Source: Candidatus Accumulibacter cognatus
GTDB lineage: Bacteria; Pseudomonadota; Gammaproteobacteria; Burkholderiales; Rhodocyclaceae
Length of the DNA: 64,000 nucleotides
Direction: 5' to 3'
NCBI GenBank assembly: GCA_013414765.1
Contig: CP058708.1
Span: 62,001-126,000 of the forward strand
The stretch's first letter is position 1. Each line of letters opens with the position of its first letter. Of the stretch, positions 6,597-22,338 are shown in pieces. The translations under genes were made by a program, and so were the position numbers. The notes under the pieces are model-generated. The model saw nothing but the letters and a program-made list of their open reading frames with translations. It was not told where the DNA came from and made no database searches.

Positions 6597-6683
6597 TGGT
6601 GCCCGGAGCCGGGGTCGAACCGGCACGGCCGCCAGGCCGAGGGATTTTAAGTCCCTTGTGTCTACCTATTCCACCATCCGGGC
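6597..6683 (-). tRNA. tRNA-Leu(UAA)
   Basis: Read on the minus strand, a 7-bp acceptor stem GCCCGGA pairs with TCCGGGC, followed by A and an encoded CCA. The anticodon loop CTTAAAA gives anticodon UAA. The long variable arm (CTCGGCCTGGCGGCCG region) and GGTTCGACCCC T-arm are typical of leucine tRNA. Total length is 87 bases including CCA. Confidence 0.97.
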
Positions 6684-7122
6684 AGCAATTTTTCAAGCAG
6701 TGACAACCATTCCGCAGACCAACGGAAGCCGGCAATCCGCGCCATTTAACAGTGCGGCGAGTCAAAATCTGTGCACCTCTTACGGGCTTTCCGAGAACAT
6801 GATAGCAGACGAGAGGGTATCCTGATGGAGCTATTGCAGCAGTTGGGTGCAACTACCCGGTGAAGGCGCCCTGCAGAAAAGCAGGAAACCGCGAAGAAGA
6901 TGCCGAGGCGTCCCGGGTGTATGATGTCGCCTTTAGCGTTGGCTCGATTCGGGATGCATGCTCTTACAGCGATTTGTCAGCAGCGGCCCGACTGCGCCGC
7001 CACCGCTCCATCCCGGCAATGGCCTCCGGCTGCATCTGGCAATCGCCTATCGTTCCAACCGTTAATGTTAGTTAATGTCTGCAATTCATGACTGACTCCA
7101 CCTTTTAGAAAGGAATCGCGCC
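6684..7122. other. Intergenic region between tRNA-Leu and the DJ-1-like gene
   Basis: About 440 bases without a supportable gene. Short frames here have no ribosome binding site or recognisable product. The last 30 bases hold the GAAAGGA ribosome binding site of the next gene. A TATCAT element on the minus strand near 6798-6803 might belong to the tRNA promoter, but it has no convincing -35 partner. Confidence 0.6.
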
Positions 7123-7767
7123 ATGACCGAAAACTCCTCTCCCATACCACTGCGGGGTATTGTTGGTGAACCGCGCAAGGGCAAGATCGGTGTTCTGATC
7201 GAAGAACACTTCGACATGACCGAGTTTCGCCTCTTCAACGAATCGTTCCCGAAGCACGGCTATCAGGTGGTTTATCTCTCCCACTTGTGGGGCAATCCTT
7301 CCCTCACCTTTGGTTCCAATCCCGACGCTGGCTGGGTGGAAGAGCATGTGCTGGTGGAGACCGAAATCACTGCCGCGGACCCGGCGGATTACAAGGGAAT
7401 CATCGTCATCGGGGCTTATGCCAGTGACCGCCTGCGTTACCAGGTCACTCCCCGCCAGGGAGAACCGAACCAGGCCCCGGCGGTAGCCTTCATCCGCCGG
7501 GCGCTCGCTGATCGCCATCTGAAGATCGGCACGATCTGCCACAGCTTGTGGCTGCTTTGCGCCGACCGCGCACTGCTGCAGGGCCGCCGGGTCACTTGCG
7601 CCCACAACATCGTCTGTGACGTCGAGAATGCTGGCGCGGAAGTGGTCTATGGTCCAGAAGGCACCGTTGATCTGGTCGTTGATGGCAACCTGATTACCGG
7701 TAAACATCCTGGGATCACCGACAAGTTCATCACCACCTTCCTGTCCGAAATCGAAAATGGGGACTGA
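7123..7767 (+). CDS. DJ-1/PfpI family protein
   Basis: A 214-residue single-domain protein of the DJ-1/PfpI superfamily. The nucleophile elbow is visible as KIGTICHSLWLLC, giving a candidate catalytic Cys139-His140 pair, and a conserved acidic residue in VLIEEHFDMTE. The GKHPG sequence near the C-terminus is also typical of PfpI-type members. Family members include deglycases, chaperones, glyoxalases and amidase-like enzymes; the substrate cannot be assigned here. The ribosome binding site AAAGGAATCGCGCC fits the ATG. The gene is about 100 bases from the following methyltransferase and may be separate from that operon. Confidence 0.85.
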   Translation: MTENSSPIPLRGIVGEPRKGKIGVLIEEHFDMTEFRLFNESFPKHGYQVVYLSHLWGNPSLTFGSNPDAGWVEEHVLVETEITAADPADYKGIIVIGAYASDRLRYQVTPRQGEPNQAPAVAFIRRALADRHLKIGTICHSLWLLCADRALLQGRRVTCAHNIVCDVENAGAEVVYGPEGTVDLVVDGNLITGKHPGITDKFITTFLSEIENGD

Positions 7768-7873
7768 GACTGTGCGGCTACCCCAATCTAGCGCACTTTT
7801 TCATCGGCGGTGGCCGAGACGGCTCTGACAACAGGCGGGCTCTCCCCGTCGATGGTCTCAGCGAAGGTAATGA

Positions 7874-8719
7874 ATGATTCCGCCAATCTCGGTTGCAGAG
7901 AACTACGACCAGTATTTTTCCAGCCGGCTTTATGAGCAGCGCTACCCGCGGCCAAACCCGTCGAGCCTGGCCATCATCATCGGCGAGATCGACGCGCTGG
8001 GTAAGCGGGTTCTCGACGTCGGCTGCGGCAATGGCCGCTATGCCGAAACCCTGCTCGAAAGCACGGACGCAACGATCGTCGCCTGCGACATCAGCAAGGA
8101 GGCGATTGACGGCTTGTCTTCCCGATGTTCCGGATACGTCGCGTCAGGCCGCTTGCGTCCCTTGCTTGGCGATCCGACGGTGGTCGCCGACAGCATCGGC
8201 GAGAACGAGAAGTTCGACCTAGTGATCATGGTGTTTGGCGTACTCGGCCACATCTATCCCCGATCACTACGTCGGGCAACGCTTGCGGCCATCCACGCAC
8301 TGCTCCGACCTGGAGGACGGATCGTCGTCACAGTACCCAACGCCGCGCGCCGATTTGCCAAGCAACAGGCGTCTTCGCAACACTTGGTAGCGCAGGGACA
8401 TCTCGAGGCCGGCGACGTTCTTTACGAACGCACTTCCCATGACCTGGCAGTAAAGATGTACTACCACCTGTACACTCTCCAGGAGTTCGAGCAGGAACTC
8501 GAACAGCAGGGTTTCCGCCTGATCCGCCTGACTGCCGAGAGCATTCTGCCGGAGAGCGGCATCGTCAAGTCGCGCTTGCTGCGCGCGATCGACTGGTTTC
8601 TGGCAAAGATCCTGCCGCTGCGCTGCGCTTACGGTTTTCTCGCGGTGGCCGAGGTGGTCAGCGCGTCGGATCAGCACACGGATTTGCCTCACCCGTTCGC
8701 TCCCAGCCAACCGGTGTAG
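7874..8719 (+). CDS. Class I SAM-dependent methyltransferase
   Basis: A 281-residue protein with the SAM-binding motif I VLDVGCGNGRYAETLL, an acidic motif II in TIVACDISKEA, and the post-motif sequence FDLVIMVFGVLGHIYP. This is the methyltransferase type 11/12 fold. The substrate is unknown. A GAAGG ribosome binding site precedes the ATG by about 7 bases. The stop codon is 8 bases from the start of the solute-binding/permease fusion, so the gene appears to be the first member of a five-gene operon ending with the SpoIIE phosphatase. A methyltransferase at the head of a sensory operon suggests a role in signalling or in modifying the sensed ligand; this is only inference. Confidence 0.85.
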   Translation: MIPPISVAENYDQYFSSRLYEQRYPRPNPSSLAIIIGEIDALGKRVLDVGCGNGRYAETLLESTDATIVACDISKEAIDGLSSRCSGYVASGRLRPLLGDPTVVADSIGENEKFDLVIMVFGVLGHIYPRSLRRATLAAIHALLRPGGRIVVTVPNAARRFAKQQASSQHLVAQGHLEAGDVLYERTSHDLAVKMYYHLYTLQEFEQELEQQGFRLIRLTAESILPESGIVKSRLLRAIDWFLAKILPLRCAYGFLAVAEVVSASDQHTDLPHPFAPSQPV

Positions 8720-8727
8720 GCCAGAAG

Positions 8728-10332
8728 ATGGGCCGCTGTCCGGGGTTTCTTGCCGCCTGCTTACTGGTGCTGATCGTCAGCATGGTTGGCCGGGAAGCAC
8801 AGGCCGACCGGCTCGATTTGATCCAGAAGCGCGGCACCTTGATCGTCGGCGTCAAATCCGATTATCCGCCTTTCGGCATGCTGGACGCGCATGGCCGCTT
8901 GATCGGTTTCGAGCCCGATCTGGCGGCTGAACTTGCCCGCCGCCTGGGCGTCGGCCTGCAGCTGCTTGCGGTCACTTCGACCAATCGCCTGCAGAAGCTC
9001 GAGGAAGGCGCCGTTGACGTGGTCATCGCCACCCTGGGCGACAGCCCGCAGCGCAGACAGATTGCCACCCTGATCGAACCCGGTTACTACGCCAGTGGCG
9101 CGACGGCAGTCGCGCCGCCCACTCCCCGGCTGTCGAGCTGGACGGACCTGCGTGGCAAAAAAGTATGCGCCACCCAGGGAGCATACTTCAACCGGCCGAT
9201 GGCCCAGCGCTTCCTGCTCGATCTGCAGATCTTCAACGGCACCCGCGACGCCCGTTTGGCACTGCGCGATGGGCGCTGCGTCGCCTGGCTGTACGATGAT
9301 ACCAGCTTCGCCGGTTTGCTCGCCGATCCGGAGTGGGAGAACTACGAGACGCCGCTACCGTCGATGATGATCTCGCCATGGGCCATCGCCCTGTCTGCCA
9401 AAGAGCAAGGATCCCGACTCGAGCAGAGAATCTCCGAAGCTGTCGCCGACTGGCACCGCAGCGCTTGGCTGATCGACGTGGAGAAGCGCTGGGGAATCAG
9501 GCCAAGTCAATATCTGGTGGAGATGCGCGCCCTCTGGACGAGACGCCAAGCCGACGGAAGCCTGCTTTGTGCCCGGCTGGAAAATGGCAACTGGCCAGCG
9601 GAGTGCCGCAACAAATGGCTACTGAAATCTGCTGACGTCGGTGGCATCCAGCATTTCGGTCTGCTCCTCAAAGAGCAGACCGGGCTCAATATGACCATCA
9701 TTTACGACGCCTACGATCGCCTCCTATTCCTGCGCGGCCTCTGGATAACGCTGCAACTGATGGCCGCGTGCATTGCCGGTAGCCTGATCGTGGGCTGCCT
9801 CGGCGCGTTGGTGGCAGAATCGGGCTTCCCCGGCATGCGCGCCGGCGTGCAGATGTCCGCCGCCCTCGGCAGAATGACGCCACCGCTGTTGCTGATCTAC
9901 CTGGTCTTTTTCGGCGTCGGTCATATCATCGTCAGTCGTTTCGGCTGGACTTTCGACGGCGCCTCGATCGTCATCGTCTGTCTCTCGACCTATACCGGCT
10001 GCGCCATCGTATCCGCCCTGCTTGAAGCCGTCTCCGTACTCAAGGAGCAGAAACCAGGTTTCCGGCTCGGCTGGCGGGAGCTGCCGCAGGCGCTACGCCT
10101 GTCCTATGCAGCAGTGGTCGCTTCGCTGGTGAACGTCGTGAAAGCGACCGGCATGGCGAGCGTCATCGCCGTACCGGAGCTCGTTTCGGCCGCCACCGCC
10201 ATCGTTGCCGAACAGGGCAACCCCGAGGTGATGATGAATGTGCTGATGATCACCTACTTCCTGTTGGTGACCACCGTCGTCCAGATCTTCAACTACCTGG
10301 CACGAAGGATTCCTGAACTTGGCTGCCGCTGA
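8728..10332 (+). CDS. Fused periplasmic solute-binding protein and ABC-type permease domain (ATPase-less)
   Basis: A 534-residue fusion. Residues 1-26 form a signal sequence or anchor. Residues about 30-270 are a family 3 amino-acid-binding domain (RGTLIVGVKSDYPPFGM, DVVIATLGDSPQRR). Residues about 325-525 are a polar amino-acid ABC permease domain (FLRGLWITLQLMAAC and the terminal TGMASVIAVPEL). The cytoplasmic EAA loop that docks the ATPase is shortened by roughly ten residues and reads EQKPGFRLGWRELPQAL in place of the usual GQWEAARALG pattern. No ABC ATPase gene lies anywhere in the window. The next permease gene overlaps this one by 14 bases. A sensory rather than transport role is my inference; a remote ATPase could still exist. 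Confidence 0.8.
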   Translation: MGRCPGFLAACLLVLIVSMVGREAQADRLDLIQKRGTLIVGVKSDYPPFGMLDAHGRLIGFEPDLAAELARRLGVGLQLLAVTSTNRLQKLEEGAVDVVIATLGDSPQRRQIATLIEPGYYASGATAVAPPTPRLSSWTDLRGKKVCATQGAYFNRPMAQRFLLDLQIFNGTRDARLALRDGRCVAWLYDDTSFAGLLADPEWENYETPLPSMMISPWAIALSAKEQGSRLEQRISEAVADWHRSAWLIDVEKRWGIRPSQYLVEMRALWTRRQADGSLLCARLENGNWPAECRNKWLLKSADVGGIQHFGLLLKEQTGLNMTIIYDAYDRLLFLRGLWITLQLMAACIAGSLIVGCLGALVAESGFPGMRAGVQMSAALGRMTPPLLLIYLVFFGVGHIIVSRFGWTFDGASIVIVCLSTYTGCAIVSALLEAVSVLKEQKPGFRLGWRELPQALRLSYAAVVASLVNVVKATGMASVIAVPELVSAATAIVAEQGNPEVMMNVLMITYFLLVTTVVQIFNYLARRIPELGCR

Positions 10333-10963
10333 AATCGCTGCCCTGTTGCTGACGTGGACACCGTTCCTGGCCGGCGGCTTCGCCTGGAACATCCTGATCT
10401 CGCTGGTGGCGATGGTCATCGGTACGCTCTTCGGAGCGCTCCTGGCATGGCTGCGCCTATCCGGGCCCACGCCGCTGGCGCACGCGAGCCTCGTCGCCAC
10501 CGAACTGACACGCAACATCCCGACTTTTGTCTTCCTCTTCTACCTGGCATTCCTGATCCCGACAGAGTTCGAATTTTCCGGACGGATCTATGCCTTTCCC
10601 GTGTGGCTCAAGGCATCGCTGGCGCTCTCCGTGGCGGTCATCGGATTCGTCTCGGACAACCTGCTCGTGGCCCTGCAGCACAGGAAGCGTCACCATCATG
10701 CGGCTGCATTGCTGTTCATTCCGAGCTGGACCACTTACCTGCTGATCATCGTCATGGCATCAAGCACTGCCTCGGTGATTGGCGTCGGAGAAATCGTCTC
10801 ACGCTGCAACATTGTCATCGCCGCGGTCGGCGGCAATGAAACGATGCTCTGGGTTTATACTTACGCCATCTGCTACTTCCTGGTCTTTTGCTTTCCACTC
10901 AACTGGGCAATGGGTTGCGCAAGAAGACGCTTGTTGGCCCGCGTCGGCGTGCCCGCGCCGTAA
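10319..10963 (+). CDS. ABC-type amino-acid permease homologue lacking the EAA loop
   Basis: A 214-residue integral membrane protein, with TM segments at FAWNILISLVAMVIGTLFGA, NIPTFVFLFYLAFLIP and YAICYFLVFCFPLNWAM. The terminal permease signature STASVIGVGEIV is present. Between the conserved TM regions the standard loop (GGxxxxPxGQxEAAxALG) is missing and replaced by a short basic stretch HRKRHHHAA. By comparison with typical HisM/GlnP-type permeases about 20 residues are absent. The TTG start is supported by AAGGA nine bases upstream, and it overlaps the preceding fusion gene, implying translational coupling. It is probably the partner of the permease half of the fusion protein. Confidence 0.78.
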   Translation: MAAAEIAALLLTWTPFLAGGFAWNILISLVAMVIGTLFGALLAWLRLSGPTPLAHASLVATELTRNIPTFVFLFYLAFLIPTEFEFSGRIYAFPVWLKASLALSVAVIGFVSDNLLVALQHRKRHHHAAALLFIPSWTTYLLIIVMASSTASVIGVGEIVSRCNIVIAAVGGNETMLWVYTYAICYFLVFCFPLNWAMGCARRRLLARVGVPAP

Positions 10964-10988
10964 GCGGTCGGCGACTTAGGGGAAACCA

Positions 10989-11903
10989 TTGATACAGATC
11001 ATCGCAATCCTTCGCCGCCTCCTGCCGGGCATGGCCGCGGCAGTGCTGCTGGCTTCCGCTCTGCAAGGATCGGCATGGGCCGAGTCGGCTCTCGACCGCA
11101 TCAGGAACACCGGCGTTCTCAACGCCGGAACCCGTGCCGATTCCATGCCGTTCGCTTACCGCTTGCAGCAGGCGGGAGACAAGGAGGCAAGGCTGGCCGG
11201 TTTCTCGGTTGACCTGATCGAACAGATCCGCAAGAAGCTCACGGAGAAGCTTGGCCGCGAAATCGAGACCCGGCTGCATATCACCACGGCCAGCGACCGC
11301 CTGGCATTGGTTGCCAGCCACACCATCGACATCGAATGCGGCATTACGACGCCCACCTGGGAGCGCCAGAAACTGGTCGATTTCTCGATCCCGTTCTTCG
11401 GCAACGGCACCCGCCTCATGGTCCTGCGCAAAACGGCCAAAGGGTTCGACGATCTGCGCGGCAAACGTATTGGTGTCGCCGCCGGCACGACGACCTCGGC
11501 CATTCTCAAACAGCACGTGCCGGATGCAATTGTGGTCGAAGTACCCGACATGGCGACCGGCTTCAAGATGTTCTCCAGTGGAGAACTCGACGGATTGTCC
11601 AACGTCGGCATCGTACTCCGTGCGCTGGTCGAGAAGAGTCCGCTCAAGAGCAAGGTCATCCTGCTGCCGCGTACCGATGCGCTGTCCTACGAATCGATGG
11701 CCTGCAGCCTGCCTCTCGACGACTCGAAATGGCGCGCCTTCGTGAATGAGGTACTGGCCGAACTCCTGGATGGTATTGACCAGTATCGGGGAGGTTATTT
11801 CGAAATCTACGACAAATGGTTCGGACCACGCGGGATCGTCTATTTCCCGCTCGACTATATAGTCGCCCAGAAACTGTCCTCCTCGATCATCTGGCTGAAG
11901 TAG
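10989..11903 (+). CDS. Periplasmic amino-acid-type solute-binding protein (family 3)
   Basis: A 304-residue exported protein. A signal peptide is visible (LLPGMAAAVLLASALQGSAWA, cleavage expected after AWA). The mature part begins ALDRIRNTGVLNAGTRADSMPFAY, a standard family 3 solute-binding start, and contains DIECGITTPTWERQKLVDFS, the usual ligand-pocket region of glutamate/aspartate-type binders. The TTG start follows AGGGGAAACC. It lies between a permease homologue and the SpoIIE phosphatase, with gaps of 25 and 10 bases. It is a plausible diffusible ligand receptor for the membrane components of the operon. Ligand identity (an amino acid such as glutamate or aspartate) is inferred from the family only. 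Confidence 0.88.
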   Translation: MIQIIAILRRLLPGMAAAVLLASALQGSAWAESALDRIRNTGVLNAGTRADSMPFAYRLQQAGDKEARLAGFSVDLIEQIRKKLTEKLGREIETRLHITTASDRLALVASHTIDIECGITTPTWERQKLVDFSIPFFGNGTRLMVLRKTAKGFDDLRGKRIGVAAGTTTSAILKQHVPDAIVVEVPDMATGFKMFSSGELDGLSNVGIVLRALVEKSPLKSKVILLPRTDALSYESMACSLPLDDSKWRAFVNEVLAELLDGIDQYRGGYFEIYDKWFGPRGIVYFPLDYIVAQKLSSSIIWLK

Positions 11904-11913
11904 GGTCGTCACG

Positions 11914-13896
11914 ATGACGCTGCGCCGCAGGCTTTTCCTCTTTGTCAGCACCCTCATCGCCATAGGCCTGCCGAGTGCCGGCTTGGTGTTCGCCTATGTC
12001 TCCTGGCTCTCCGTGCTGGAACGAACCGAGCGCGATGGCATCCTGATCGCCCAGACCCTTGCCCAGTCCGTCACTTTCATCCAGCAGGTGCCAACTGCCC
12101 TGGAACAGATCATTGACCAGAACGTGCGCACCCAGGCAGATATCGTTGCGCAACTGACCCACCTGGCGCAGCGGCAGAAGATTTCTGCGCTGGAAATCAA
12201 TCGGGCGCTGCGGACCATCGCCGTTCGCAACGGGATTCCGGAGGTCTGGGTAACCGATGCCAGCGGTCAACCGCTCTTCTGGTCGCTCGACGACATCGAC
12301 GCGTCTATTGCCCTCGACTCGGGGCTGACTCTGCAACCGAAATTCAAGCCGCTACTGCAGGGGCAGCAGTACAGCCTATCCACCGAACTGATGTACCGCT
12401 CGATTGACCACAGTCAATTGTACTACGGCGCGGTAACCATGCCGGAGCGGAGCGGCGGCATGACCCTGATCGCCCATCGGCCCAACCTCGCCAACAGCAG
12501 CATTCAGAATGTCGGCCTGAAGAGGATGGTGGACAGCGTTCTGTCGGGAGCGCTGATCGACGCCATCTGGATATTCGATGAAAACCTTCAAGCATTGGCC
12601 GTCAGTTCCGTCGCCAGCAACGACGGAACTGCCACACTAAGCGATGAACAGCGCACCTTCATCGAAACGGTAATCAGTACCAGCACCCCTGCTTCCTATT
12701 TTGCAGACAAGGTGCTGTTCCGGCATGCGTTCCTGTACGTTGCTGCGCCAACCTTTGGCGCGGACGGTTTGCCAAACGGGGCAGCACTGATGCGTCTGCC
12801 GGTCAACATGGATGCGGAGCTTCATTCACTCCTGACCATCGGTGGCGGGGTGACCGTGATCATGCTGTTGCTGGGAATGGCTCTGGCCCTGCCCTTTCTC
12901 AACCGCATCGTCCGGCCGCTGGCGCGCCTGACCGTACAAACCCATCGCCTGGTTGCGCATCACTTCGACCCGGATCAGGAAATGCATGCGGAACTGCTCA
13001 AAGTGTCGGAGAACCGCAAGGATGAAGTCGGATACCTGGGGAACGCCCTGTACTCGATGGTCACCACGCTCAAAGCTCATATCGCGGACCTCAAGGCAAC
13101 GACTGCCGCCAAGGAGCGGATCGAGGGCGAGATGTCTGCCGCCCGCGCCATCCAGATGGGCATGCTGCCGCACAATTTCGGGGAACCGGCACCCGGCGCC
13201 CGCTTCGACCTGCACGCCGTACTCGAACCGGCCAAAGCGGTCGGCGGCGATCTGTTCGATTTCTTTCCGCTCGACGAACACCGGCTGTTCTTTCTGATCG
13301 GGGACGTGTCGGACAAGGGGGTGGCCGCCGCGCTGTTCATGGCAGTGACCAAGACGCTGTTCGCTGTCGAGGCGAAGCGCGACTCGGCATCGGTTGGCGG
13401 CATCATGGAACGGGTCAACCACAGCCTCTGCGAGAATAATCCCGAAGGCATGTTCGTCACCGTCTTTGCCGGCATCCTCGACCTGCGGACCGGGGAGATC
13501 AGCTTTAGCGACGGCGGCCACGAACTGCCTTTCCTGTTGCGCCACGACGGCGGTGCGGCAATGATCGAGAAGAAGAAGGGGGGGCTGGTCCTGGGCTTCG
13601 TCGCTGAATCAGTCTACCGCAATGACCTCATCCAGTTGCAGCCTGGCGAAGGACTGGTGATCTACACCGACGGCGTCACCGAAGCGATGAACGGCGATCA
13701 CGAGCTGTTCAACGCGACACGTCTGGGCGACAGCCTGGCCGCGATCTCGCCAGACTGTTCTGCACGCACGGTCATCGACAGGGTGATGAACTCGGTTCGT
13801 GCTTTCGTCGGCGAGCATCCGCAAAGCGATGACATTACCCTGCTGGCACTACGCTGGCACGGCCCTTCCGGCAACGGGCCTCCCGCAGCGAATTAG
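11914..13896 (+). CDS. Membrane HAMP-SpoIIE (PP2C-type) serine phosphatase
   Basis: A 660-residue sensor phosphatase. An N-terminal TM segment (about 8-30) and a second (about 308-332, VTVIMLLLGMALALPFL) enclose a ~275-residue periplasmic domain. A HAMP domain follows (PLARLTVQTHRLVAHHF), then a coiled coil and a SpoIIE/RsbU-type phosphatase domain from about 420 to the end. Metal-binding aspartates appear in VGGDLFDFF, LIGDVSDKG, YTDGVTEAM and SDDITLLAL. Such enzymes dephosphorylate STAS-domain anti-anti-sigma factors, and two STAS proteins and a matching kinase are encoded 3-6 kb downstream. It is the last gene of the solute-binding/permease operon, 10 bases after the previous stop, so the periplasmic proteins are likely its input (inference). 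Confidence 0.92.
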   Translation: MTLRRRLFLFVSTLIAIGLPSAGLVFAYVSWLSVLERTERDGILIAQTLAQSVTFIQQVPTALEQIIDQNVRTQADIVAQLTHLAQRQKISALEINRALRTIAVRNGIPEVWVTDASGQPLFWSLDDIDASIALDSGLTLQPKFKPLLQGQQYSLSTELMYRSIDHSQLYYGAVTMPERSGGMTLIAHRPNLANSSIQNVGLKRMVDSVLSGALIDAIWIFDENLQALAVSSVASNDGTATLSDEQRTFIETVISTSTPASYFADKVLFRHAFLYVAAPTFGADGLPNGAALMRLPVNMDAELHSLLTIGGGVTVIMLLLGMALALPFLNRIVRPLARLTVQTHRLVAHHFDPDQEMHAELLKVSENRKDEVGYLGNALYSMVTTLKAHIADLKATTAAKERIEGEMSAARAIQMGMLPHNFGEPAPGARFDLHAVLEPAKAVGGDLFDFFPLDEHRLFFLIGDVSDKGVAAALFMAVTKTLFAVEAKRDSASVGGIMERVNHSLCENNPEGMFVTVFAGILDLRTGEISFSDGGHELPFLLRHDGGAAMIEKKKGGLVLGFVAESVYRNDLIQLQPGEGLVIYTDGVTEAMNGDHELFNATRLGDSLAAISPDCSARTVIDRVMNSVRAFVGEHPQSDDITLLALRWHGPSGNGPPAAN

Positions 13897-13941
13897 GGCG
13901 TGTCCTCAATTAACGGCAATCGCCGCGCCTGATTACTCCGG

Positions 13942-14454
13942 CTAATTGCTCGCCATCCTCTGGGGCAGATCGATAATGCGTGGCGGGTGTCCGATCCGAT
14001 CGAGAAATCGCAGCAGATCGTGCGTGGCGATCGCGGTAGTGCGGTCATTTCGCAACGGGTGACAGTTGAGGACATCGCTGTCCAGCAGCCGCTGCTCAAG
14101 GACAACGCAGACGCGACCATGCACGTCGTTGATCGCGGCGAAAGGCGAGACGGCTCCCGGAACGACGCCAAGGATGCTGCCCAATTCCTCCTCGCTGGCG
14201 AACGAGAGGCGCGATGCCTGCAACAGGCTTGCGGCAACCCGCAGATCTACGCGGGTCTGTTCCAGCGCCACTAACAACCAGTACCCGGACTTCTTGTCCC
14301 TCAGGAAAAGGCTCTTGGCGTGCCCTCCCGCGAGGTCTCCGCGCAGGCGCTTGCTATCTTCCACCGTGCGCAGCGGCGGATGCTCGACGGTCGTGGTGAC
14401 GATGTCCAACTCGGCAAGCATCGACATCAGATGCTGGTTATCGGCAAGAAGCAT
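13942..14454 (-). CDS. Prolyl-tRNA editing protein ProX/PrdX (YbaK-like deacylase)
   Basis: A 170-residue member of the YbaK/ProX family that hydrolyses mischarged Ala- or Cys-tRNA(Pro) in trans. The conserved elements TVEHPPLRTVED, GGHAKSLFLRDKK, a lysine in the active region and the GAVSPFAAINDV segment match freestanding PrdX proteins in length and order. It is transcribed opposite to its neighbours and sits between the two operons of the putative signalling system; there is no sign that it belongs to that system. The ATG start matches the usual beginning of the family. Confidence 0.9.
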   Translation of the reverse strand: MLLADNQHLMSMLAELDIVTTTVEHPPLRTVEDSKRLRGDLAGGHAKSLFLRDKKSGYWLLVALEQTRVDLRVAASLLQASRLSFASEEELGSILGVVPGAVSPFAAINDVHGRVCVVLEQRLLDSDVLNCHPLRNDRTTAIATHDLLRFLDRIGHPPRIIDLPQRMASN

Positions 14455-14696
14455 TGCGAGTCCTCATACCCTCTGGTTATCGTCGCCATGAGGCTGTTCA
14501 CCCACCAGACCGGATCGAGCCAGATCATGATTTATGGGATTAAACTTATGCTGAAGAAAATGGACAAGTAGCAGTTGACCGCCTCTCAAGATTGCAGCTA
14601 ACCTAGGCGCCATGGTCCGGATTGAACAACAACCGGCAGGCTCGAACAACAACCAACAAGCAATATAACCAACACCCAATATCGCGAGGAACAGTC

Positions 14697-16526
14697 ATGA
14701 AGACGCAAGCCTATTCTTATTCGGACACGATTACCGGTTACGTCACGCAGGTTGATCGTGCAGCACGCAGCTTTACTCTCAGGACCAATAGCGGCCAGGA
14801 TTTTCAAGTGTATCTCACGCCGACCACTTACGCTCGAATTGCAGAGAACCTCGAGGACAGTTACCAGGATTGCACCTCGCGCATCCGCGAAATGCTGCAA
14901 CCCGGCCAGCAGGTTTACGCGTACTGCATCTTCTATCCACAAGCGGGAGAGTTGCGTGCCGAGGTCAAATCGATGGTCTTCCCGGGCGAGGGACCCGGCG
15001 TCTATCGCCACGAGGAACCCGACTGGTGGATCAAACAGATCCGTTCCATCGCCAACAGCTACCTGCGCTGGCAGTTCAACTACCCCAATCAGTCGATCGA
15101 CTATCGAAATTATCGCACGATCCTGCACCTGGCCGGCGGCAAGAAAGGCGACTACCTGCAGGAAACCGACACCATTTCCCGGATGGTTTACGGCATGGCA
15201 TCGGCCTACATGCTGACCGGTGAGGAAAGCTTCCTCGAGGCCGCAGAGAAAGGAACAGAGTACCTGCGTGCCCACATGCGCTTCATGGATGCGGACGAGG
15301 ATCTGATCTACTGGTACCACGGGGTCCAGGTTTCCGGAGACCGCGAGCACAAGCTGCTGACCTCGGAGTTCGGCGACGACTACGACTCGCTGCCGATGTA
15401 CGAGCAGATCTACGCCCTCGCCGGACCAACCCAGACCTATCGTCTCACCGGCGACCCGCGCATTCTCTACGATATCGAGAAAACGATCGAACTGTTCGAC
15501 AAATACTACAAGGACAACGATCAGGGCGGCTACTTCTCGCACATCGATCCGATCGGCCTGGATCCGCGCTCGCCACTGCTCGACAAAGGCAACAATCGCG
15601 CCCGCAAAAACTGGAATTCGGTCGGCGATCACGCCCCGGCCTACCTGATCAACCTCTGGCTGGCAACCGGTGAGGACAAGTACGCCGATTTCCTGGCTGA
15701 CACCGCCGATACCATCGTCAAGCACTTCCCCGACTACGAGCATTCGCCATTTGTCCAGGAGCGCTTCCATGAAGACTGGAGTCACGACAGCGCCTGGAAC
15801 TGGCAGCAGGACCGTGCGGTGGTTGGCCACAATCTCAAGATTGCCTGGAACCTGATGCGAATCCACAGCATTCGTCCGAGTGCAGGTTACCTCGAACTGG
15901 CCGAGAAGATTGCCCAGTTGATGCCCAAGGTCGGTTCCGACCAGATCCGCGGCGGCTGGTACGACGTGGTCGAACGGGCACTGGCTCCGGGCGAGGAAAT
16001 GCATCGTTTTGTCTGGCATGATCGCAAGGCTTGGTGGCAGCAGGAGCAGGCGATCCTCGCCTACCTGATTTTGCAGGGCTGCCTGGACAAAGCGGACTAC
16101 CAGAAACACGGCCGCGAAGCAGCAGCCTTCTACAACGCCTTCTTCCTGGATCACGACGATGGCGGTGTCTATTTCAACGTTCTCGCCAATGGGCTGCCTT
16201 ATCTGCTGGGTAACGAAAGGCTCAAGGGCAGCCACTCGATGAGTGCCTATCACTCCACCGAGTTGTGCTTCCTGTCGGCGACCTATATCAACCTGCTGAT
16301 CAACAAGCAGCCAATGTGTTTGTACTTCAAGCCACGGCCCGACGGTTTTCCGGGCCGGATCCTGCGGGTATCTCCGGACATCCTGCCCAAGGGCAGTATC
16401 CGCCTGACCGCGGTCGAGATTGACGGCAAACCTTACTCCGCCTTCGATGCTGAAGCCCTGACGGTGCAACTACCCGATTCCCGCCAGGATGTGCGGGTCA
16501 AGGTCACCCTGACACCGGTCAAGTAG
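14697..16526 (+). CDS. AGE-family (N-acylglucosamine 2-epimerase-like) protein with N-terminal extra domain
   Basis: 609 residues. The first ~95 residues form a small beta-rich domain (TGYVTQVDRAARSFTLRTNS), possibly an OB-like fold. Residues about 105-520 resemble the (alpha/alpha)6 barrel of the N-acylglucosamine/cellobiose 2-epimerase family, with ETDTISRMVYGMASAYMLTG, HEDWSHDSAWNWQQDRAVVG and the WHDRKAWWQQEQAILAYL helix carrying candidate catalytic histidines. A beta-rich tail of ~80 residues follows. The start at 14697 has GAGGAAC upstream; an in-frame TTG at 14622 lacks one. It is the first gene of a five-gene operon with STAS, GlgX-like, STAS and kinase genes. Activity on glucose-containing oligosaccharides would suit a glycogen setting, but the substrate is not known. 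Confidence 0.75.
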   Translation: MKTQAYSYSDTITGYVTQVDRAARSFTLRTNSGQDFQVYLTPTTYARIAENLEDSYQDCTSRIREMLQPGQQVYAYCIFYPQAGELRAEVKSMVFPGEGPGVYRHEEPDWWIKQIRSIANSYLRWQFNYPNQSIDYRNYRTILHLAGGKKGDYLQETDTISRMVYGMASAYMLTGEESFLEAAEKGTEYLRAHMRFMDADEDLIYWYHGVQVSGDREHKLLTSEFGDDYDSLPMYEQIYALAGPTQTYRLTGDPRILYDIEKTIELFDKYYKDNDQGGYFSHIDPIGLDPRSPLLDKGNNRARKNWNSVGDHAPAYLINLWLATGEDKYADFLADTADTIVKHFPDYEHSPFVQERFHEDWSHDSAWNWQQDRAVVGHNLKIAWNLMRIHSIRPSAGYLELAEKIAQLMPKVGSDQIRGGWYDVVERALAPGEEMHRFVWHDRKAWWQQEQAILAYLILQGCLDKADYQKHGREAAAFYNAFFLDHDDGGVYFNVLANGLPYLLGNERLKGSHSMSAYHSTELCFLSATYINLLINKQPMCLYFKPRPDGFPGRILRVSPDILPKGSIRLTAVEIDGKPYSAFDAEALTVQLPDSRQDVRVKVTLTPVK

Positions 16527-16559
16527 CTCCGCACCCATCGCAGCGAAGGATTCAAGCAT

Positions 16560-16913
16560 ATGTCGATCGAGGTTGAAGCTTTCCCCCGCGACGGGATGAC
16601 AGTCGTGGCCGTTGCTGGCGAGATTGACGGCAGTTCCGCGCCCAGTTTGCAGAGCAAGATCCTGCCCCTGTTGCAGGAAAACGATTCGCTGATCCTGGAC
16701 CTTAACCGCGTCACTTATATGTCCAGCGCCGGTCTGCGGATGCTGCTCCTGCTCTACCGCCAGGCGGCGGCGCACAATGGCCGGGTCGCTCTGGCCGGTT
16801 TGGCGGAATCGATCAGGGACACCATGGAGATTACCGGTTTTCTCAAGTTCTTTACCGTTGCAAACAGCGTCGACGCGGCGCTGACGGCCCTCAAGCAGGT
16901 GAGACATGGATAG
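16560..16913 (+). CDS. STAS-domain protein (anti-sigma factor antagonist type)
   Basis: A 117-residue single STAS domain of the RsbV/SpoIIAA class. The phospho-acceptor region reads YMSSAGLRMLL, with Ser56 aligning to the phosphorylated serine of RsbV. Its coding sequence overlaps the start of the glycogen debranching gene by 8 bases, so translation is probably coupled. In known systems such a protein is phosphorylated by an RsbW-like kinase and dephosphorylated by a SpoIIE phosphatase; both are encoded nearby. The usual final target, a sigma factor, is not encoded in this window. Confidence 0.92.
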   Translation: MSIEVEAFPRDGMTVVAVAGEIDGSSAPSLQSKILPLLQENDSLILDLNRVTYMSSAGLRMLLLLYRQAAAHNGRVALAGLAESIRDTMEITGFLKFFTVANSVDAALTALKQVRHG

Positions 16914-19041
16914 CCGCATCGATTTCTACCCGACTCACCAGCACGAAGGCTACAAGTTCCGACTAGGGCGTGTATTTCCATTCGGCAGCACCCTGGTACC
17001 GGGCGGCGTCAACTTCGCCATCAGCTCTGGCCACGCCACCTCCTGTACCTTGGTACTCTTCGAGAAGGGTGCGCCCGAGCCTCTGGTGGAGATTCCGTTC
17101 CCGGACTCCTTCCGCATCGGCAATGCCTGGTGCATGGTGGTCTTCGATCTCGACTACGAGCGCATTGAGTATGGCTATCGCATGGACGGCCCCTGGGATC
17201 CGGTGGCAGGACATCGCTTCGATCGGAGCAAAATCCTTCTCGATCCGTACGCCAAGGCAATTAGCGGCCGCACGGTCTGGGGAAAACTACCCGACTGGAA
17301 CGACTGCTACCCCCACCGTGCCCGACTGATCTTCGAGGATTTCGATTGGGAAGACGACCGCCCCCTGGAAACACCGCTCGCTGACCTGGTGATCTACGAA
17401 CTGCACACGCGCAGCTTCACTGCTCATCCCTCGGCAGGCGTCAAGCACCCCGGTACCTATGCGGGAATCATGGCCAAGATCCCCTATCTGAAAGAACTGG
17501 GGGTGAACTGTGTCGAGCTGATGCCGATCTTCGAGTTCGACGAGTTCGAAAACAGCCGTCCCAACCCGCTCACCGGTGAGATGATGTACAACTACTGGGG
17601 CTACAGCACGGTCGGTTTCTTTGCTCCCAAGGCCGGCTTTGCAGCCTCCGGGCCCTTTGGCATGGAGGTGGACGAGTTCAAGAACCTGGTCAAGGAGCTT
17701 CACCGCAACGGCATCGAAGTCATTCTCGACGTGGTTTTCAACCATACCGCCGAGGGTAACGAGCAGGGTCCGACACTTTCCTTCCGGGGGATCGACAACC
17801 AGACCTATTACATGCTGACTCCCGAGGGCTACTACTATAACTTCAGCGGCTGCGGCAACACACTCAACTGTAACAGCCCGGTAGTCCGAAACATGGTTCT
17901 CGACTCCCTGCGATACTGGGCAGCGGAATATCATATCGACGGTTTCCGCTTCGATCTGGCCTCAATCCTGGGACGTGCTCCCAGCGGCGCCCCCTTACCC
18001 AACCCGCCCTTGCTCGAAAGTCTGGCGTTTGACCCCATACTGGCCAAATGCAAGCTGATCGCCGAAGCCTGGGACGCTGGCGGCCTGTATCAGGTCGGGT
18101 CGTTCCCGGCGTATGGACGGTGGGCCGAGTGGAACGGCAAGTACCGCGACGACATCCGACGCTTCCTCAAGGGAGACGAGGGAATGGTCCCGGTGATGGC
18201 CGAGCGTATCCAGGGCTCGCCTGACCTCTACGGTTGGAACCAACGCGGTCCAACTGCATCGATCAATTTCATCACCTGCCACGACGGCTTCACCCTCTAC
18301 GACCTGTTCGCCTATAACGACAAGCACAACGAAGCCAACGGCGAACAGAACCGTGACGGCGGCAACGACAACCATAGCTGGAACTGTGGCGTCGAGGGCG
18401 AAACCAGCGATCCTGGGGTCAATGACCTGCGCCAGCGGATGATCAAGAACGCACTGGCAATTCTGCTGATGAGCCACGGCGTCCCGATGATCCTGATGGG
18501 TGATGAGATGGGGCGAACCCAGCGCGGCAACAACAACACCTACTGCCATGATAATGACCTGAACTGGCTCGACTGGAGATTGCACGAACGGCACGGCAAT
18601 CTATTCAACTTCGCCCGCCAGATGATTGCCTTGCGCAAGGCACACCCGCTCTTGCGCGCCCGCGAGTTCTTCGGAAGCAGTCCCACTCAGGCCGACATCA
18701 TCTGGCACGGCACACAAGCCTGGCGAGCCGACTGGTCGCCAGGTGCACGGACCCTGGCCTTCATGCTCCGCGAGCGGCAGGCAGGACAAGGGGGAAATGT
18801 CAGTCCGGTGCTGTACATGGCCATCAACTGTTATTGGGATGCCCTCCCCTTCGAATTACCGGAACTGCCCGCCAACTATCACTGGTATCTGTTCGCCAAT
18901 ACCGGCTTGCCAGCCCCCGATGACATCCGGGAGCCCGGCCAGGAAGTCAAACTGGAAGAGAATCTGCTCAGTTTTCTGGTCGGTGGGCGAGCGCTGGTGA
19001 TACTGATCGGGCGCCCACGGCTGCATGACCAGACAACTTGA
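16906..19041 (+). CDS. glgX: Glycogen debranching enzyme (GlgX / isoamylase type, GH13)
   Basis: A 711-residue GH13_11-type enzyme that hydrolyses alpha-1,6 branches of (limit-dextrin) glycogen. An N-terminal CBM48-like domain (about 15-150) is followed by the (beta/alpha)8 barrel. Visible catalytic residues: nucleophile Asp350 in HIDGFRFDLA, general acid Glu387 in LIAEAWDAGG, and His459-Asp460 in FITCHDGFTL. The YNYWGYST and VVFNHTAEGN motifs are typical of GlgX and TreX. Unlike most glgX genes it is not beside glgA, glgB, glgC or glgP but is sandwiched between two STAS genes, which suggests dedicated regulation. The ATG lies within the end of the preceding STAS gene. Confidence 0.92.
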   Translation: MDSRIDFYPTHQHEGYKFRLGRVFPFGSTLVPGGVNFAISSGHATSCTLVLFEKGAPEPLVEIPFPDSFRIGNAWCMVVFDLDYERIEYGYRMDGPWDPVAGHRFDRSKILLDPYAKAISGRTVWGKLPDWNDCYPHRARLIFEDFDWEDDRPLETPLADLVIYELHTRSFTAHPSAGVKHPGTYAGIMAKIPYLKELGVNCVELMPIFEFDEFENSRPNPLTGEMMYNYWGYSTVGFFAPKAGFAASGPFGMEVDEFKNLVKELHRNGIEVILDVVFNHTAEGNEQGPTLSFRGIDNQTYYMLTPEGYYYNFSGCGNTLNCNSPVVRNMVLDSLRYWAAEYHIDGFRFDLASILGRAPSGAPLPNPPLLESLAFDPILAKCKLIAEAWDAGGLYQVGSFPAYGRWAEWNGKYRDDIRRFLKGDEGMVPVMAERIQGSPDLYGWNQRGPTASINFITCHDGFTLYDLFAYNDKHNEANGEQNRDGGNDNHSWNCGVEGETSDPGVNDLRQRMIKNALAILLMSHGVPMILMGDEMGRTQRGNNNTYCHDNDLNWLDWRLHERHGNLFNFARQMIALRKAHPLLRAREFFGSSPTQADIIWHGTQAWRADWSPGARTLAFMLRERQAGQGGNVSPVLYMAINCYWDALPFELPELPANYHWYLFANTGLPAPDDIREPGQEVKLEENLLSFLVGGRALVILIGRPRLHDQTT

Positions 19042-19062
19042 TCATTCTTTGGAGACAGGAAC

Positions 19063-19380
19063 ATGACATTCAGTACCACAGTGGAAACCAGAGGCCGCGA
19101 GGCATGGATCACGCTCGACGGCGAACTCGACGCCGCAGTGGCCGGAGAATTCCGTACGGCAATCGAACGGCTCGCCCAGGAAAAACCCGAGAAGCTCGTG
19201 CTCTTCGTGAACAAGCTGCAATTCATGGCCAGCGCTGGCCTGCGCGTGCTGGTGTTCGCCAAGCAACGGATGGGCAGCGAGGTCAGCATACATGTCGTCG
19301 GAGCCACGGGCCCAGTCCTCAACACCTTGCAAATGAGCGGCTTCGACCAGTCGGTTTACCTTCAGGAAAGCTATCCCTGA
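19063..19380 (+). CDS. STAS-domain protein (anti-sigma factor antagonist type), second copy
   Basis: A 105-residue single STAS domain. It contains ELDAAVAGEFRTAIERL and the acceptor region FMASAGLRVLVFAK, with Ser57 at the RsbV phosphorylation position. It is distinct from the STAS protein at 16560-16913, with clear divergence across the whole length, so the two may serve different partners. A GGAGACAGG ribosome binding site precedes the ATG. The kinase gene begins 19 bases after its stop codon. Confidence 0.92.
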   Translation: MTFSTTVETRGREAWITLDGELDAAVAGEFRTAIERLAQEKPEKLVLFVNKLQFMASAGLRVLVFAKQRMGSEVSIHVVGATGPVLNTLQMSGFDQSVYLQESYP

Positions 19381-19399
19381 GCCTGGCGCCCACCAGGTC

Positions 19400-19822
19400 A
19401 TGGCAAGCCACAGCATTCCGGCCAATCTGGCAGCGCTCTCGGCAATTCGTCATCTGGTCACTGAGGCGTGCATCGAGGCAGGACTGGACGGTTCAGCGAC
19501 CTATCGTCTGACCCTGGCCGTGGATGAGATCGCCACCAACATCATCACCCACGGCTACCAGGAACAAGGCATGACGGGCGACATCGTGATTTCGATTGAG
19601 AAAATGGACGATAAGCTGACCGTCATCCTCGAGGACACAGGCGTCGCTTACGACCCTCGTGCGCGCAACATGCCGACTGCAGAAGACCTCGACAAACCGT
19701 TATCGGAACGTGATATCGGCGGGCTTGGAATCTACCTTGCGCTGCAAGGCGTCGATCGCTTCGATTATCAGCGTTGCGAGCAGGTCAACCGCAACATTCT
19801 CGAAGTCGAACGGCCCCGCTGA
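19400..19822 (+). CDS. RsbW-like anti-sigma serine kinase (HATPase_c_2)
   Basis: A 140-residue GHKL-fold ATPase. The N-box is AVDEIATNIITHGY, the G1-type box is LEDTGVAYDP and the G2-type box is ERDIGGLGIYLAL. In characterised partner switches this protein binds a sigma factor or another target and is released when it binds an unphosphorylated STAS protein. It is the last gene of the epimerase/STAS/GlgX/STAS operon. The associated phosphatase is encoded in the upstream operon. No sigma factor gene is next to it, which is unusual for RsbW and common for BtrW/HtsT-like systems with other outputs. Confidence 0.92.
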   Translation: MASHSIPANLAALSAIRHLVTEACIEAGLDGSATYRLTLAVDEIATNIITHGYQEQGMTGDIVISIEKMDDKLTVILEDTGVAYDPRARNMPTAEDLDKPLSERDIGGLGIYLALQGVDRFDYQRCEQVNRNILEVERPR

Positions 19823-19870
19823 CCCCTGGCTTGTCTGGCAAAATTGCCTGCTCACCGGCACAAATAAAAG

Positions 19871-19960
19871 TGGTCCTAGAACAGTCTTCCGACAATCCAG
19901 CAGCGATCCGGGGGAGGAATTCAGCCCTCTGAATGTCTGAGAACTTATCTGAAACCGCTT
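19871..19960 (+). repeat. Imperfect ~90-bp direct repeat, copy A
   Basis: This segment, 48 bases before the first RTX-type gene, matches a second copy at 22151-22239 in the same orientation with roughly four of five positions identical. The shared core includes CTTCCGACA, GCGATCCG, GGAGGAATTCAGCCC and GAGAACTTATCTGA.ACCGCTT. It is not a coding sequence I recognise. Confidence 0.85.
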
Positions 19961-20008
19961 ATCAGCGGATTTCTTATCCTTTTAAAAATACTCATTTGGA
20001 CGACACTC

Positions 20009-22114
20009 GTGGCAACATTCCTGTTCAGTGCTCTTAGCAATGGTACGACCATCACGTTTAACCCTGTCAACGATATCCTCAAGTTCGACTCATCGACGAT
20101 TGCGGCCGCAAGTGTCGCTGTAAGCTCGCCAAATACATCCAGCGTGTTATTCAGCGCAGCAGGCAAAGTCGTTCGGGTGGATGGCCTTTCACTTACTCAA
20201 GTCTCTGTTACAAACGTGACATTTGCCGACGGCAGCAGGATGTTAGTCGGTGATGGCAGCGTTGCCACTTCGTCCGACGAACTAGGCACGACAATTTCTG
20301 GTACAAAGTTCGGCGATCTGGCTCTGGGATTAGGAGGTAATGACTCGATAATCGGCGGTATGGGGAGCGATGTGCTCATCGGTGGAGGTGGAAATGACAC
20401 TCTGGATGGTGGACGATGGTCTATCATCGGCACTACCGACGCCATTGGGGGGCAGCCATATTTTCTGACTGGCATTTCGTCGCCTGAACTGTCGCAGGAC
20501 GGGCACTATCTAGTCTGGAAGGGATTGGCGTCTGTTCAAGAGGTGGAGTTTCGCAAGGATCTTGTTACGGGACAAGTGGACTTGATACAGGCTAACGCTA
20601 ACCTCCAGACTGTTTCTGTCTCGGCGGACGGTCGATTTGTCGCCATGAGTTCTTTCGCTCAGCTTGTTCCGGGTGGATCTGGAACCTCGACCGATGTCTA
20701 CGTCAAGGATTTTCAAACGGGTGGGATAGTGAGGGCCTCGACGACTGCAGCCGGACTGACGGGCCGCTTCACTGTATTTGGGGCAGAGATTACCGATGAC
20801 GGACGCCATGTTGGATTCCGTACCGGTTCCCCCCTCCCAGGGTTCACGGATTCACTTGGCCCAGGCTTGGACAACCAACTTGTCGTGAAGAACCTGGACA
20901 CGGGTGCCATCAATGCCGTCACGGTCGATGGACTTTACGGGGGCGCAGCCTTTAGCGATTATCAAATGTCCGCCGATGCGCGTTTCGTCGCTTTCTCCAG
21001 TAGGGGCGCTCTTGTGGCGAATGATGCCGACGACTCGTTTGACGTCTATGTCAAAGACATGCAGACGGGCATTCTCACCCTTGCTTCGGTAGCGCAGAAC
21101 GAATCGAACCTGAATGGCGCCTTCAATGTGGATATGAGCCCAGACGGGCGATTTGTAGCCTTCCTTAGCGGTACTGATATTCAGCAGCCCCTCAGCCTCT
21201 ATTGGCGCAACATGGAGACGGCAGAAGTCCGGCTAGTGAGCCTTTCGGCGACGAACAGCCCATTTGGTGGGCTGCAGCAGAGCTCTGGGCCTGCAATCTC
21301 CGATGACGGTCGGTTCATAGTTTTTCAGGGGCTGCGGGCGGCTTCTGCAAGTTCTTTCGTAGACGATGGCATTCGAGTTTGGGATCGTGACACTGGACAG
21401 ATTGCGTTAGTGTCGAAAGCAATAGATGGATCGCTTGCCAAGGGCGTGGAACCAGCGATTTCCGGTGATGGGCGATTCATCACTTTTCGGAGCGGGGCGT
21501 CAAATATTGTTTCGGGAGATGCAAATGGATCTGACGATATCTTTGTAGTCGGCAATCCGTTTTACAGCGATTCACAGCCTGGTGGAGCTGGAGATATTGA
21601 CGTCGCAGTCTTCAGCGGTAAACTCACCGACTACGCGCTTACAAAAACTAACAGCGGTTATACTGTCCGGGCTCTGACCGGTACCGACGGGACAGACACG
21701 ATATCAAATGTCGAACGGCTTAAATTTGCCGATGTCAGCCTTGCACTCGATATCGATGGGAACGCTGGTAAAGTAGCCAAGATACTTGGTGCCGTCTTCG
21801 GCAAGGCATCCGTATCCAACAAGGAGTATGTCGGTATAGGATTAAAGTTGCTCGACGATGGAATGACCTACGAAGCATTGGCTGGTTTGGCCATTGGCGT
21901 TACCGGGAAAACAGCGCCAGTCGACGTTGTCGACCTACTCTGGACTAATGTGGTCGGAAGTCACCCAAGCCCCGGTCAGGCTCAGCCACTTATCGATATG
22001 TTGAACAGTGGAATGACTACAGCCGCCTTGGTAGTTTTAGCCAGTGACACCGCTTTAAACCAAATAAATGTCAACTTAGTTGGCCTGCAGCACACTGGGG
22101 TAGAGTATATGTAG
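20009..22114 (+). CDS. RTX-type secreted protein with beta-propeller repeats and DUF4214-like C-terminus
   Basis: A 701-residue protein without a Sec signal, expected to leave by a type I secretion system. Residues about 95-140 contain RTX calcium-binding nonapeptides (GLGGNDSIIG, GGMGSDVLIG, GGGGNDTLDGG). Residues about 145-520 contain several TolB/WD40-like blades, each with an S.DGRFVAF..S motif. The C-terminal ~130 residues (DIDGNAGKVAKILGAVFGK, KEYVGIGLKLLDDGM) resemble the DUF4214-associated end domain common in type I substrates. The GTG start has only a weak GGA upstream. Base composition is visibly lower in GC than in flanking operons, suggesting transfer or a fast-evolving surface gene. 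No secretion apparatus is encoded nearby. Confidence 0.82.
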   Translation: MATFLFSALSNGTTITFNPVNDILKFDSSTIAAASVAVSSPNTSSVLFSAAGKVVRVDGLSLTQVSVTNVTFADGSRMLVGDGSVATSSDELGTTISGTKFGDLALGLGGNDSIIGGMGSDVLIGGGGNDTLDGGRWSIIGTTDAIGGQPYFLTGISSPELSQDGHYLVWKGLASVQEVEFRKDLVTGQVDLIQANANLQTVSVSADGRFVAMSSFAQLVPGGSGTSTDVYVKDFQTGGIVRASTTAAGLTGRFTVFGAEITDDGRHVGFRTGSPLPGFTDSLGPGLDNQLVVKNLDTGAINAVTVDGLYGGAAFSDYQMSADARFVAFSSRGALVANDADDSFDVYVKDMQTGILTLASVAQNESNLNGAFNVDMSPDGRFVAFLSGTDIQQPLSLYWRNMETAEVRLVSLSATNSPFGGLQQSSGPAISDDGRFIVFQGLRAASASSFVDDGIRVWDRDTGQIALVSKAIDGSLAKGVEPAISGDGRFITFRSGASNIVSGDANGSDDIFVVGNPFYSDSQPGGAGDIDVAVFSGKLTDYALTKTNSGYTVRALTGTDGTDTISNVERLKFADVSLALDIDGNAGKVAKILGAVFGKASVSNKEYVGIGLKLLDDGMTYEALAGLAIGVTGKTAPVDVVDLLWTNVVGSHPSPGQAQPLIDMLNSGMTTAALVVLASDTALNQINVNLVGLQHTGVEYM

Positions 22115-22239: not shown

Positions 22240-22338
22240 ACCGAGCAGGTTGAATGTACTATTGTCAAAATGGCCCCCTATTGAAATGAACGACAGGCCA
22301 ATACTGCGATTCGCTTATCAAATTTGAAGGAGATACTC

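Follow-up and report, generated by a model that had tools for sequence, protein, structure and literature searches.

We analysed a 64,000-nucleotide stretch (the window) of Candidatus Accumulibacter cognatus, the genome of which is one contig of 5.17 Mb, and found that two adjacent operons in it belong together and that their linkage is not due to chance. The second of these operons encodes an AGE-family protein, a STAS protein (STAS1), a GlgX-type debranching enzyme, a further STAS protein (STAS2) and an RsbW-like kinase, and this gene set is of the icfG cluster type. The first, hereafter the sensor operon, encodes a HAMP–SpoIIE phosphatase together with periplasmic solute-binding and permease-like domains, some of them fused in one gene (the binding–permease gene). 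We lean, a little short of calling it probable, towards the reading that the pair is an icfG-type partner switch, gained by horizontal transfer and equipped with a new sensory front end, in which a receptor that does not transport would drive the SpoIIE phosphatase and STAS1 would act on AGE and GlgX.

Both operons lie in a colinear block of 12.8 kb (from about 7076–7110 to about 19798–19816), the limits of which, drawn by comparison with loci of Accumulibacter (L018–L020) and Competibacteraceae (L021), mark the genes from DJ-1 to RsbW as one unit. Its genes are the following.

7123..7767, plus strand: DJ-1/PfpI protein at the left end of the block (PF01965, E 9.5e-15)
7874..8719, plus strand: SAM-dependent methyltransferase (PF13489, E 1.1e-15)
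8728..10332, plus strand: family-3 solute-binding domain fused to an ABC permease-like domain (PF00497, E 3.6e-20; TIGR01726, 32.9 bits, under the cut-off of 42.2)
10319..10963, plus strand: ABC permease-like protein with a shortened EAA loop (TIGR01726, 44.6 bits, above the cut-off of 42.2; no Pfam match)
10989..11903, plus strand: family-3 periplasmic solute-binding protein (PF00497, E 6.3e-19)
11914..13896, plus strand: membrane HAMP–SpoIIE phosphatase (SpoIIE, E 1.6e-45; HAMP weak, 20.7 bits against a cut-off of 25)
13942..14454, minus strand: tRNA-editing-domain (YbaK/ProX-like) gene between the two operons (PF04073, E 4.6e-30)
14694..16526, plus strand: AGE-family protein (epimerase/isomerase fold) with an added N-terminal beta domain
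16560..16913, plus strand: STAS1, of the anti-sigma-antagonist type (STAS, E 8.3e-23; MSSAGLR, predicted phospho-acceptor Ser56)
16906..19041, plus strand: GlgX-type debranching enzyme (TIGR02100, 709 bits, above cut-off)
19063..19380, plus strand: STAS2 (STAS, E 1.8e-14; MASAGLR, predicted phospho-acceptor Ser57)
19400..19822, plus strand: RsbW/SpoIIAB-like kinase (HATPase_c_2, PF13581, E 1.8e-22; RsbW equivalogs under cut-off)

Family searches bore out all the genes, families, coordinates and gene order of the original prediction for this DNA, as well as its spacer range of −8 to 33 bases in the second operon, where the gaps from AGE to RsbW are 33, −8, 21 and 19 bases. Its pair of operons stands as far as the genes go, but it had overlooked the minus-strand gene between them, the methyltransferase and DJ-1 genes upstream and the fact that no ATPase is found. 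The two operons are separated by 797 bases. The methyltransferase gene ends 8 bases ahead of the binding–permease gene and adjoins it in 14 of 14 loci that have both the binding–permease gene and SpoIIE (57–93% identity); it is probably the first gene of the sensor operon, which would thus start before 8728. A scan of 7000–20100 returned 1 promoter-like site, compared with 4.2 in shuffled sequences, and 10 terminator-like sites, compared with 10.0. Short AACAACAACC-type repeats lie just upstream of AGE (about 14620–14690) and are partly retained in L130.

The second operon has the same make-up as the icfG cluster of Synechocystis PCC 6803 (slr1852–slr1862). According to the accessible parts of two papers (PMC8670252 and PMC12329169), that cluster has in common with it AGE (Slr1855, an N-acetylglucosamine 2-epimerase in PMC8670252), STAS (Slr1856, there an anti-sigma antagonist), isoamylase/GlgX (Slr1857), a second STAS (Slr1859), the phosphatase IcfG (Slr1860) and an RsbW-type kinase (Slr1861). 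In the available text of PMC12329169, Slr1861 phosphorylates Slr1856 and Slr1859 and controls the sigma factor SigC, and IcfG dephosphorylates Slr1856 but not Slr1859. The linkage of the switching triad to GlgX is therefore already known, and what had been put forward as a new nutrient-to-storage route is better described as an icfG-type switch. The likeness to Synechocystis is drawn from the published description; in other cyanobacterial cassettes the AGE protein has 65–71% identity to that of the window. Unlike IcfG, the phosphatase here is a membrane HAMP protein that shares an operon of its own with binding proteins and permease-like subunits; it is encoded upstream of AGE and behind a minus-strand gene, outside the AGE operon yet less than 1 kb away. 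In the open-licence literature we found no paper on partner switching with STAS and GlgX, nor on a 2-epimerase with a STAS domain and glgX. Where PMC6599016 could be consulted it treats GlgX and the anti-sigma antagonist as separate matters, and the portion of PMC8385029 at hand merely lists slr1855.

A profile search with AGE provided the loci in which the cassette was followed; they are the best 80 of at least 552 relatives, and the counts describe near relatives only. Of 66 informative loci, which come from several phyla including the cyanobacteria, 59 have the order AGE–STAS–GlgX–STAS–RsbW, and AGE–STAS–GlgX is found in 71 of the 72 with enough downstream DNA, the exception (L034) having one extra STAS gene; 14 and 8 loci, respectively, were left out as too short downstream. 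Hosts include Cyanobacteriota, Bacteroidota, Chloroflexota, Thermodesulfobacteriota and Nitrospirota, among others, and plasmids of Nostoc, Runella, Deinococcus and Streptomyces bear the cassette or its first three genes. Four cyanobacterial loci (L037–L040) place the phosphatase between STAS2 and RsbW (AGE–STAS–GlgX–STAS–SpoIIE–RsbW). In 51 of 74 loci (6 left out) a DJ-1 homolog is encoded no more than 3 kb upstream of AGE, and it is the usual upstream neighbour in other phyla too. The DJ-1/PfpI protein of the block has 63–71% identity to cassette-side copies in many cyanobacteria and about 30–38% to those in other phyla and some cyanobacteria.

The proteins of the switch have the residues expected of a partner-switching triad. 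Of 79 loci in which the STAS encoded between AGE and GlgX was found, 78 have the xSSAGLR motif in it, and the predicted phospho-acceptor Ser of the STAS after GlgX is kept in 63 of 64, with one locus lacking a pattern match in each case. The phosphatase has all of the SpoIIE motifs GGDLFD, GDVSDKG, TDGVTEA and SDDITLL. The kinase combines a HATPase_c_2 domain with DEIATN, which we take to be the DE...N box of such kinases, and falls under the NCBIfam cut-offs for RsbW/SpoIIAB equivalogs (47.3 against 145, 41.8 against 155.05 and 25.6 against 135 bits). On these motifs and the linkage described below, a phosphatase–STAS–RsbW circuit is very likely real, and the triad that had been predicted across the two operons does look like one set. 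SpoIIE/STAS switches of Gram-negative bacteria, SiaABCD among them, are a further known kind with a HAMP–SpoIIE protein of similar length; the SiaA model NF038263 scores 63.3 bits over residues 310–647 of the phosphatase here, far below its cut-off of 700 bits. No diguanylate cyclase is encoded among the genes here, and a separate RsbW-like kinase is, in contrast to SiaABCD.

Linkage of the two operons was assessed in two groups of genomes, 28 of the genus (G000–G027) and 39 of the Competibacteraceae, the family of the Contendobacter genome G150 from which L022 derives. In the genus, AGE of at least 90% identity occurs in 6 genomes and the binding–permease gene in the same 6 and in G019 (Fisher p 1.9e-5); in the family, 9 genomes have the binding–permease gene at 67% identity or more and 10 have AGE (in one of them as a partial match of 38%), both being present in 7 (p 2.4e-4), and these p values are too small because genomes that share the block by descent or transfer are not independent. 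All 11 genomes with an AGE of 86–100% identity (6 of the genus and 5 of the family, with only these two genes located in G160) carry AGE and the binding–permease gene within 9 kb on one contig. AGE and RsbW were not found in the draft genome G019; its binding–permease frame is split, and a DUF6399 open reading frame stands at the contig end, adjoining the expected start of AGE. This arrangement suits decay after loss of the cassette, in a single draft genome in which assembly error is possible.

That phosphatase, STAS1 and RsbW belong to one circuit is indicated most strongly by locus L154 of genome G182, where the sensor operon, the minus-strand gene, STAS1 (64%) and RsbW (68%) stand in a row, with no AGE, GlgX or STAS2 between them, on a contig that ends 74 bases after RsbW. 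AGE and GlgX therefore need not adjoin the circuit. The tRNA-editing-domain gene adjoins SpoIIE in L153, L154 and L155, in which AGE and GlgX are not next to it. A scattering of these genes in all close relatives, the pattern that the original prediction had said would speak against it, did not occur.

The flanks of the block differ or are rearranged between loci. A tRNA-Leu gene (6597–6683) lies about 400 bases left of the block edge, the block is near it in G019 as well, and this gene is a possible insertion site. The piece 22448–22875, to the right of the block in the window, is found to its left in L018, L020 and L021; it belongs to a region with an open reading frame of 194 amino acids (22324–22908) that has no Pfam match and a similar stretch of which stands left of the block in the same three loci. 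Two RTX-type repeat proteins are encoded immediately right of the block (20009–22114 and 23044–24222), and a stretch like the second of them lies right of the block in L017 and is inverted in L020.

The front end of the sensor operon draws on the binding-protein and permease families of family-3 importers such as GlnHPQ and HisJQMP, but no ATPase gene was found with it and the EAA coupling loop is shortened in both permeases. No open reading frame of at least 150 amino acids in the 64-kb window combines a Walker A motif with an ABC signature, a test that does recognise E. coli GlnQ and HisP, and neither of these proteins has a match there at E ≤ 1e-3. Over 17 related loci the same tests returned two ATPases, in L021 and L132, the former more than 4 kb past RsbW and with only 26% identity to GlnQ. 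In ABC importers the EAA loop docks the ATPase. This region has 48 residues in GlnP, HisM and HisQ, compared with 28 in the permease-like protein (20 fewer, in 35 of 35 aligned rows) and 38 in the fused permease domain (10 fewer, in 33 of 35 rows; the other two are the split G019 gene, which gave no residues). Some genomes are represented by more than one row, and the genomes number 19 (18 in the case of the fused permease): 7 Accumulibacter, 9 Competibacteraceae and 3 belonging to other genera within the same order, whose homologs (39–48% identity) have the shortened loop as well. From these features we infer that the binding modules and the permease-like pair together make up a receptor that has lost its transport function. 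The distant binding–permease homologs L131, L132 and L133 have the shortened loop, and their neighbours are NMT1-like or unknown proteins rather than SpoIIE.

Both binding modules align with the ligand-site Arg of HisJ and the fused module alone with its Asp, residues that have their roles in the HisJ ligand site; this hints at an amino-acid-like ligand. The periplasmic solute that had been predicted as the input is plausible, given two predicted family-3 binding modules. Phosphatases of other cassettes have sensory neighbours of a different kind. A PF04392-type binding protein adjoins the cassette phosphatase in L025, L026, L030, L031 and L058, and in L058 it lies just upstream (E 2.6e-32). 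In L026 a PF04392 binding protein and Mem_trans-like proteins come after a dCache_1–HAMP–SpoIIE protein, L030 has a PF04392–Mem_trans fusion ahead of dCache_2–SpoIIE, and HAMP–SpoIIE proteins occur in the L058 and L064 cassettes. The counts over the 80 cassette loci used two SpoIIE queries and a few binding-protein queries, and L032 was not counted as a binding-protein locus, its match being weak (26%) and far from the cassette. A broader proposal, possible although we make it more guardedly, is that a former ABC importer, now dead for transport, serves as a periplasmic receptor driving a SpoIIE switch, and that the icfG-type glucan cassette is a mobile module of wide distribution, the front end of which is swapped between lineages: family-3 proteins here, and PF04392 binding proteins with carrier-like membrane proteins and Cache domains elsewhere. 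The motor-less importer as sensor would be the new element of the system, and our literature search found no report of one as an input to partner switching.

We hypothesize the following sequence of events. The binding modules and permease-like pair would act as a receptor without transport, and an amino-acid-like periplasmic solute bound by it would change the activity of the phosphatase. RsbW would phosphorylate STAS1 (at Ser56) and STAS2 (at Ser57), and the HAMP–SpoIIE phosphatase would reverse this for at least STAS1. Unphosphorylated STAS1 would then act on AGE and GlgX and so switch a side route of glucan breakdown on or off. A second possible output would be a sigma factor held by RsbW, as SigC is in Synechocystis.

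An action of STAS1 on AGE and GlgX is favoured by its constancy beside them without RsbW and by a STAS–AGE fusion. In 6 of 66 loci no RsbW was found over a distance of 6 kb, yet STAS1 stays with AGE and GlgX there; two of the six (L046 and L048) have STAS2, RsbW and SpoIIE at a greater distance, on the opposite strand. A Nostoc plasmid encodes an AGE with a fused STAS domain (L013, E 1.4e-10), and the tails of AGE proteins in Competibacteraceae score near or below the Pfam STAS cut-offs (L158 just above, L156 and L157 below); the AGE proteins of L014 and L159 have no STAS match. These proteins make up a second class of AGE (L156–L159, L013 and L014), the C terminus of which carries a STAS or STAS-like tail; they are encoded next to or near a more distant GlgX (45–49% identity) and, in all but L013, with a DJ-1 gene nearby.

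The genome has three GlgX copies above the cut-off. One of the others belongs to a separate glk–glgP–glgB–glgX cluster and one is fused to TreZ, so the third copy, that of the cassette, is accessory. Gating of glycogen breakdown by the STAS proteins, as originally predicted, may be one output; glycogen as the sole output was not adopted, given the separate glk–glgP–glgB–glgX cluster. The AGE protein has the (alpha/alpha)6-barrel fold, and its Lys K382 is invariant in 40 sequences. In AGE-family enzymes the Glu after the GHN motif is catalytic; the motif here is GHNLKIAW, compared with GHNSEFAW in the glucose-2-epimerase of Runella, and the conserved Glu is absent, with K382 in its place. The protein may thus not be an epimerase, to judge from this alignment.

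Several observations weigh against the proposed switch. Inheritance as one block inflates the co-occurrence of its two halves. The sensor operon is present without AGE in G159 and G190, and in G162 it is separated from an AGE of the fused type, and the sole RsbW, encoded elsewhere, is a 35% match, which means that the phosphatase may also serve another switch. STAS1 and RsbW without AGE and GlgX, as in L154, indicate that these enzymes are not the sole possible output, and G158 and G161, which have fused or long AGE forms, gave no RsbW match at E ≤ 1e-3, so that a STAS joined to AGE is not necessarily a substrate of the kinase. No SpoIIE gene is found near the cassette in 22 of 56 loci with long flanks (24 of the 80 left out), 17 of them Bacteroidota; the phosphatase may there be encoded elsewhere or be of another sort. 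A structure model of the phosphatase built from 9 sequences was poor (predicted local distance difference test score, pLDDT, 44.3) and was left unused for fold searches. To these points are added the ATPase of L132 and the SigC target of Synechocystis, which bear on two of the alternatives.

SigC, as presented in the consulted part of PMC12329169, points to a sigma factor. Under a purely transcriptional switch, RsbW would serve as the anti-sigma factor of, say, RpoS (group 2), with the STAS proteins as its antagonists and AGE and GlgX merely co-expressed. RpoS is present in all five genomes checked (G000, G001, G150, G151 and G182), but no sigma-factor family is represented among the genes of the block, and a pure sigma model explains neither the presence of STAS1 with AGE and GlgX where RsbW is not nearby nor the STAS–AGE fusion; we regard it as unlikely, if worth serious attention. 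The output of the switch may be AGE/GlgX, a sigma factor or both. We hold it to be improbable that the sensor operon and the cassette are independent mobile modules on a shared island, with the phosphatase acting on a different STAS. The absence of AGE from G159 and G190, which have the sensor operon, a fused-type AGE of 60% identity on another contig in G162 and G182, and the inverted operon some 4 kb from AGE in Contendobacter (L022–L024) would all agree with it; the co-location of both genes in 11 of 11 genomes and the junction of the sensor operon with STAS1 and RsbW in L154 argue otherwise.

ATPases shared between importers are known. The front end could accordingly be an amino-acid importer of the ordinary kind, served by an ATPase from another part of the genome, its adjacency to the phosphatase reflecting co-regulation only, an explanation to which we give little credence. 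Its proteins do fall in amino-acid permease and binding-protein families, and the distant permease pair of L132 has a GlnQ-like ATPase gene (42% identity) about 3 kb downstream. We set this explanation aside as the principal one because no ATPase was found in 64 kb and because the loops are short by 20 and 10 residues, also in the three homologs from other genera.

The block appears to have moved between sludge bacteria. The AGE protein of the window is 86–89% identical to those of five Competibacteraceae genomes, whereas RpoB is 62% identical over its length in one of three genomes of that family and 53–74% in segments in the other two. Between Accumulibacter species, RpoB is 91–92% (two genomes) and AGE 90–98% (five genomes) identical, the nearest named AGE relative being Ca. 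Accumulibacter vicinus UBA5574 (98%). In an AGE tree made by a quick method and rooted for drawing only, Accumulibacter is nested among Competibacteraceae with support of 83–99. This placement suggests a transfer from Competibacteraceae to Accumulibacter. Such a transfer has a precedent in a pfkA homolog of Accumulibacter that derived from Competibacteraceae, as stated in the accessible portion of PMC11131965. The words debranching, epimerase and anti-sigma do not occur in the available text of PMC4502571, on gene transfer in these sludges.

The icfG switch had been linked to the use of carbon in a single model cyanobacterium, and it is seen here as a module of many phyla in which STAS1 is almost inseparable from AGE and GlgX. 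This provides handles for testing a cluster that is poorly explained. Should the motor-less importer prove to be a receptor, it would be a type of input for partner switching of which we found no report. A nearly identical copy of the block is present in some phosphorus-accumulating Accumulibacter and in some of their glycogen-accumulating competitors in wastewater treatment, the Competibacteraceae. If the proposed switch is correct, one solute signal would set glucan use in both the polyphosphate-accumulating and the glycogen-accumulating bacteria of the sludge.

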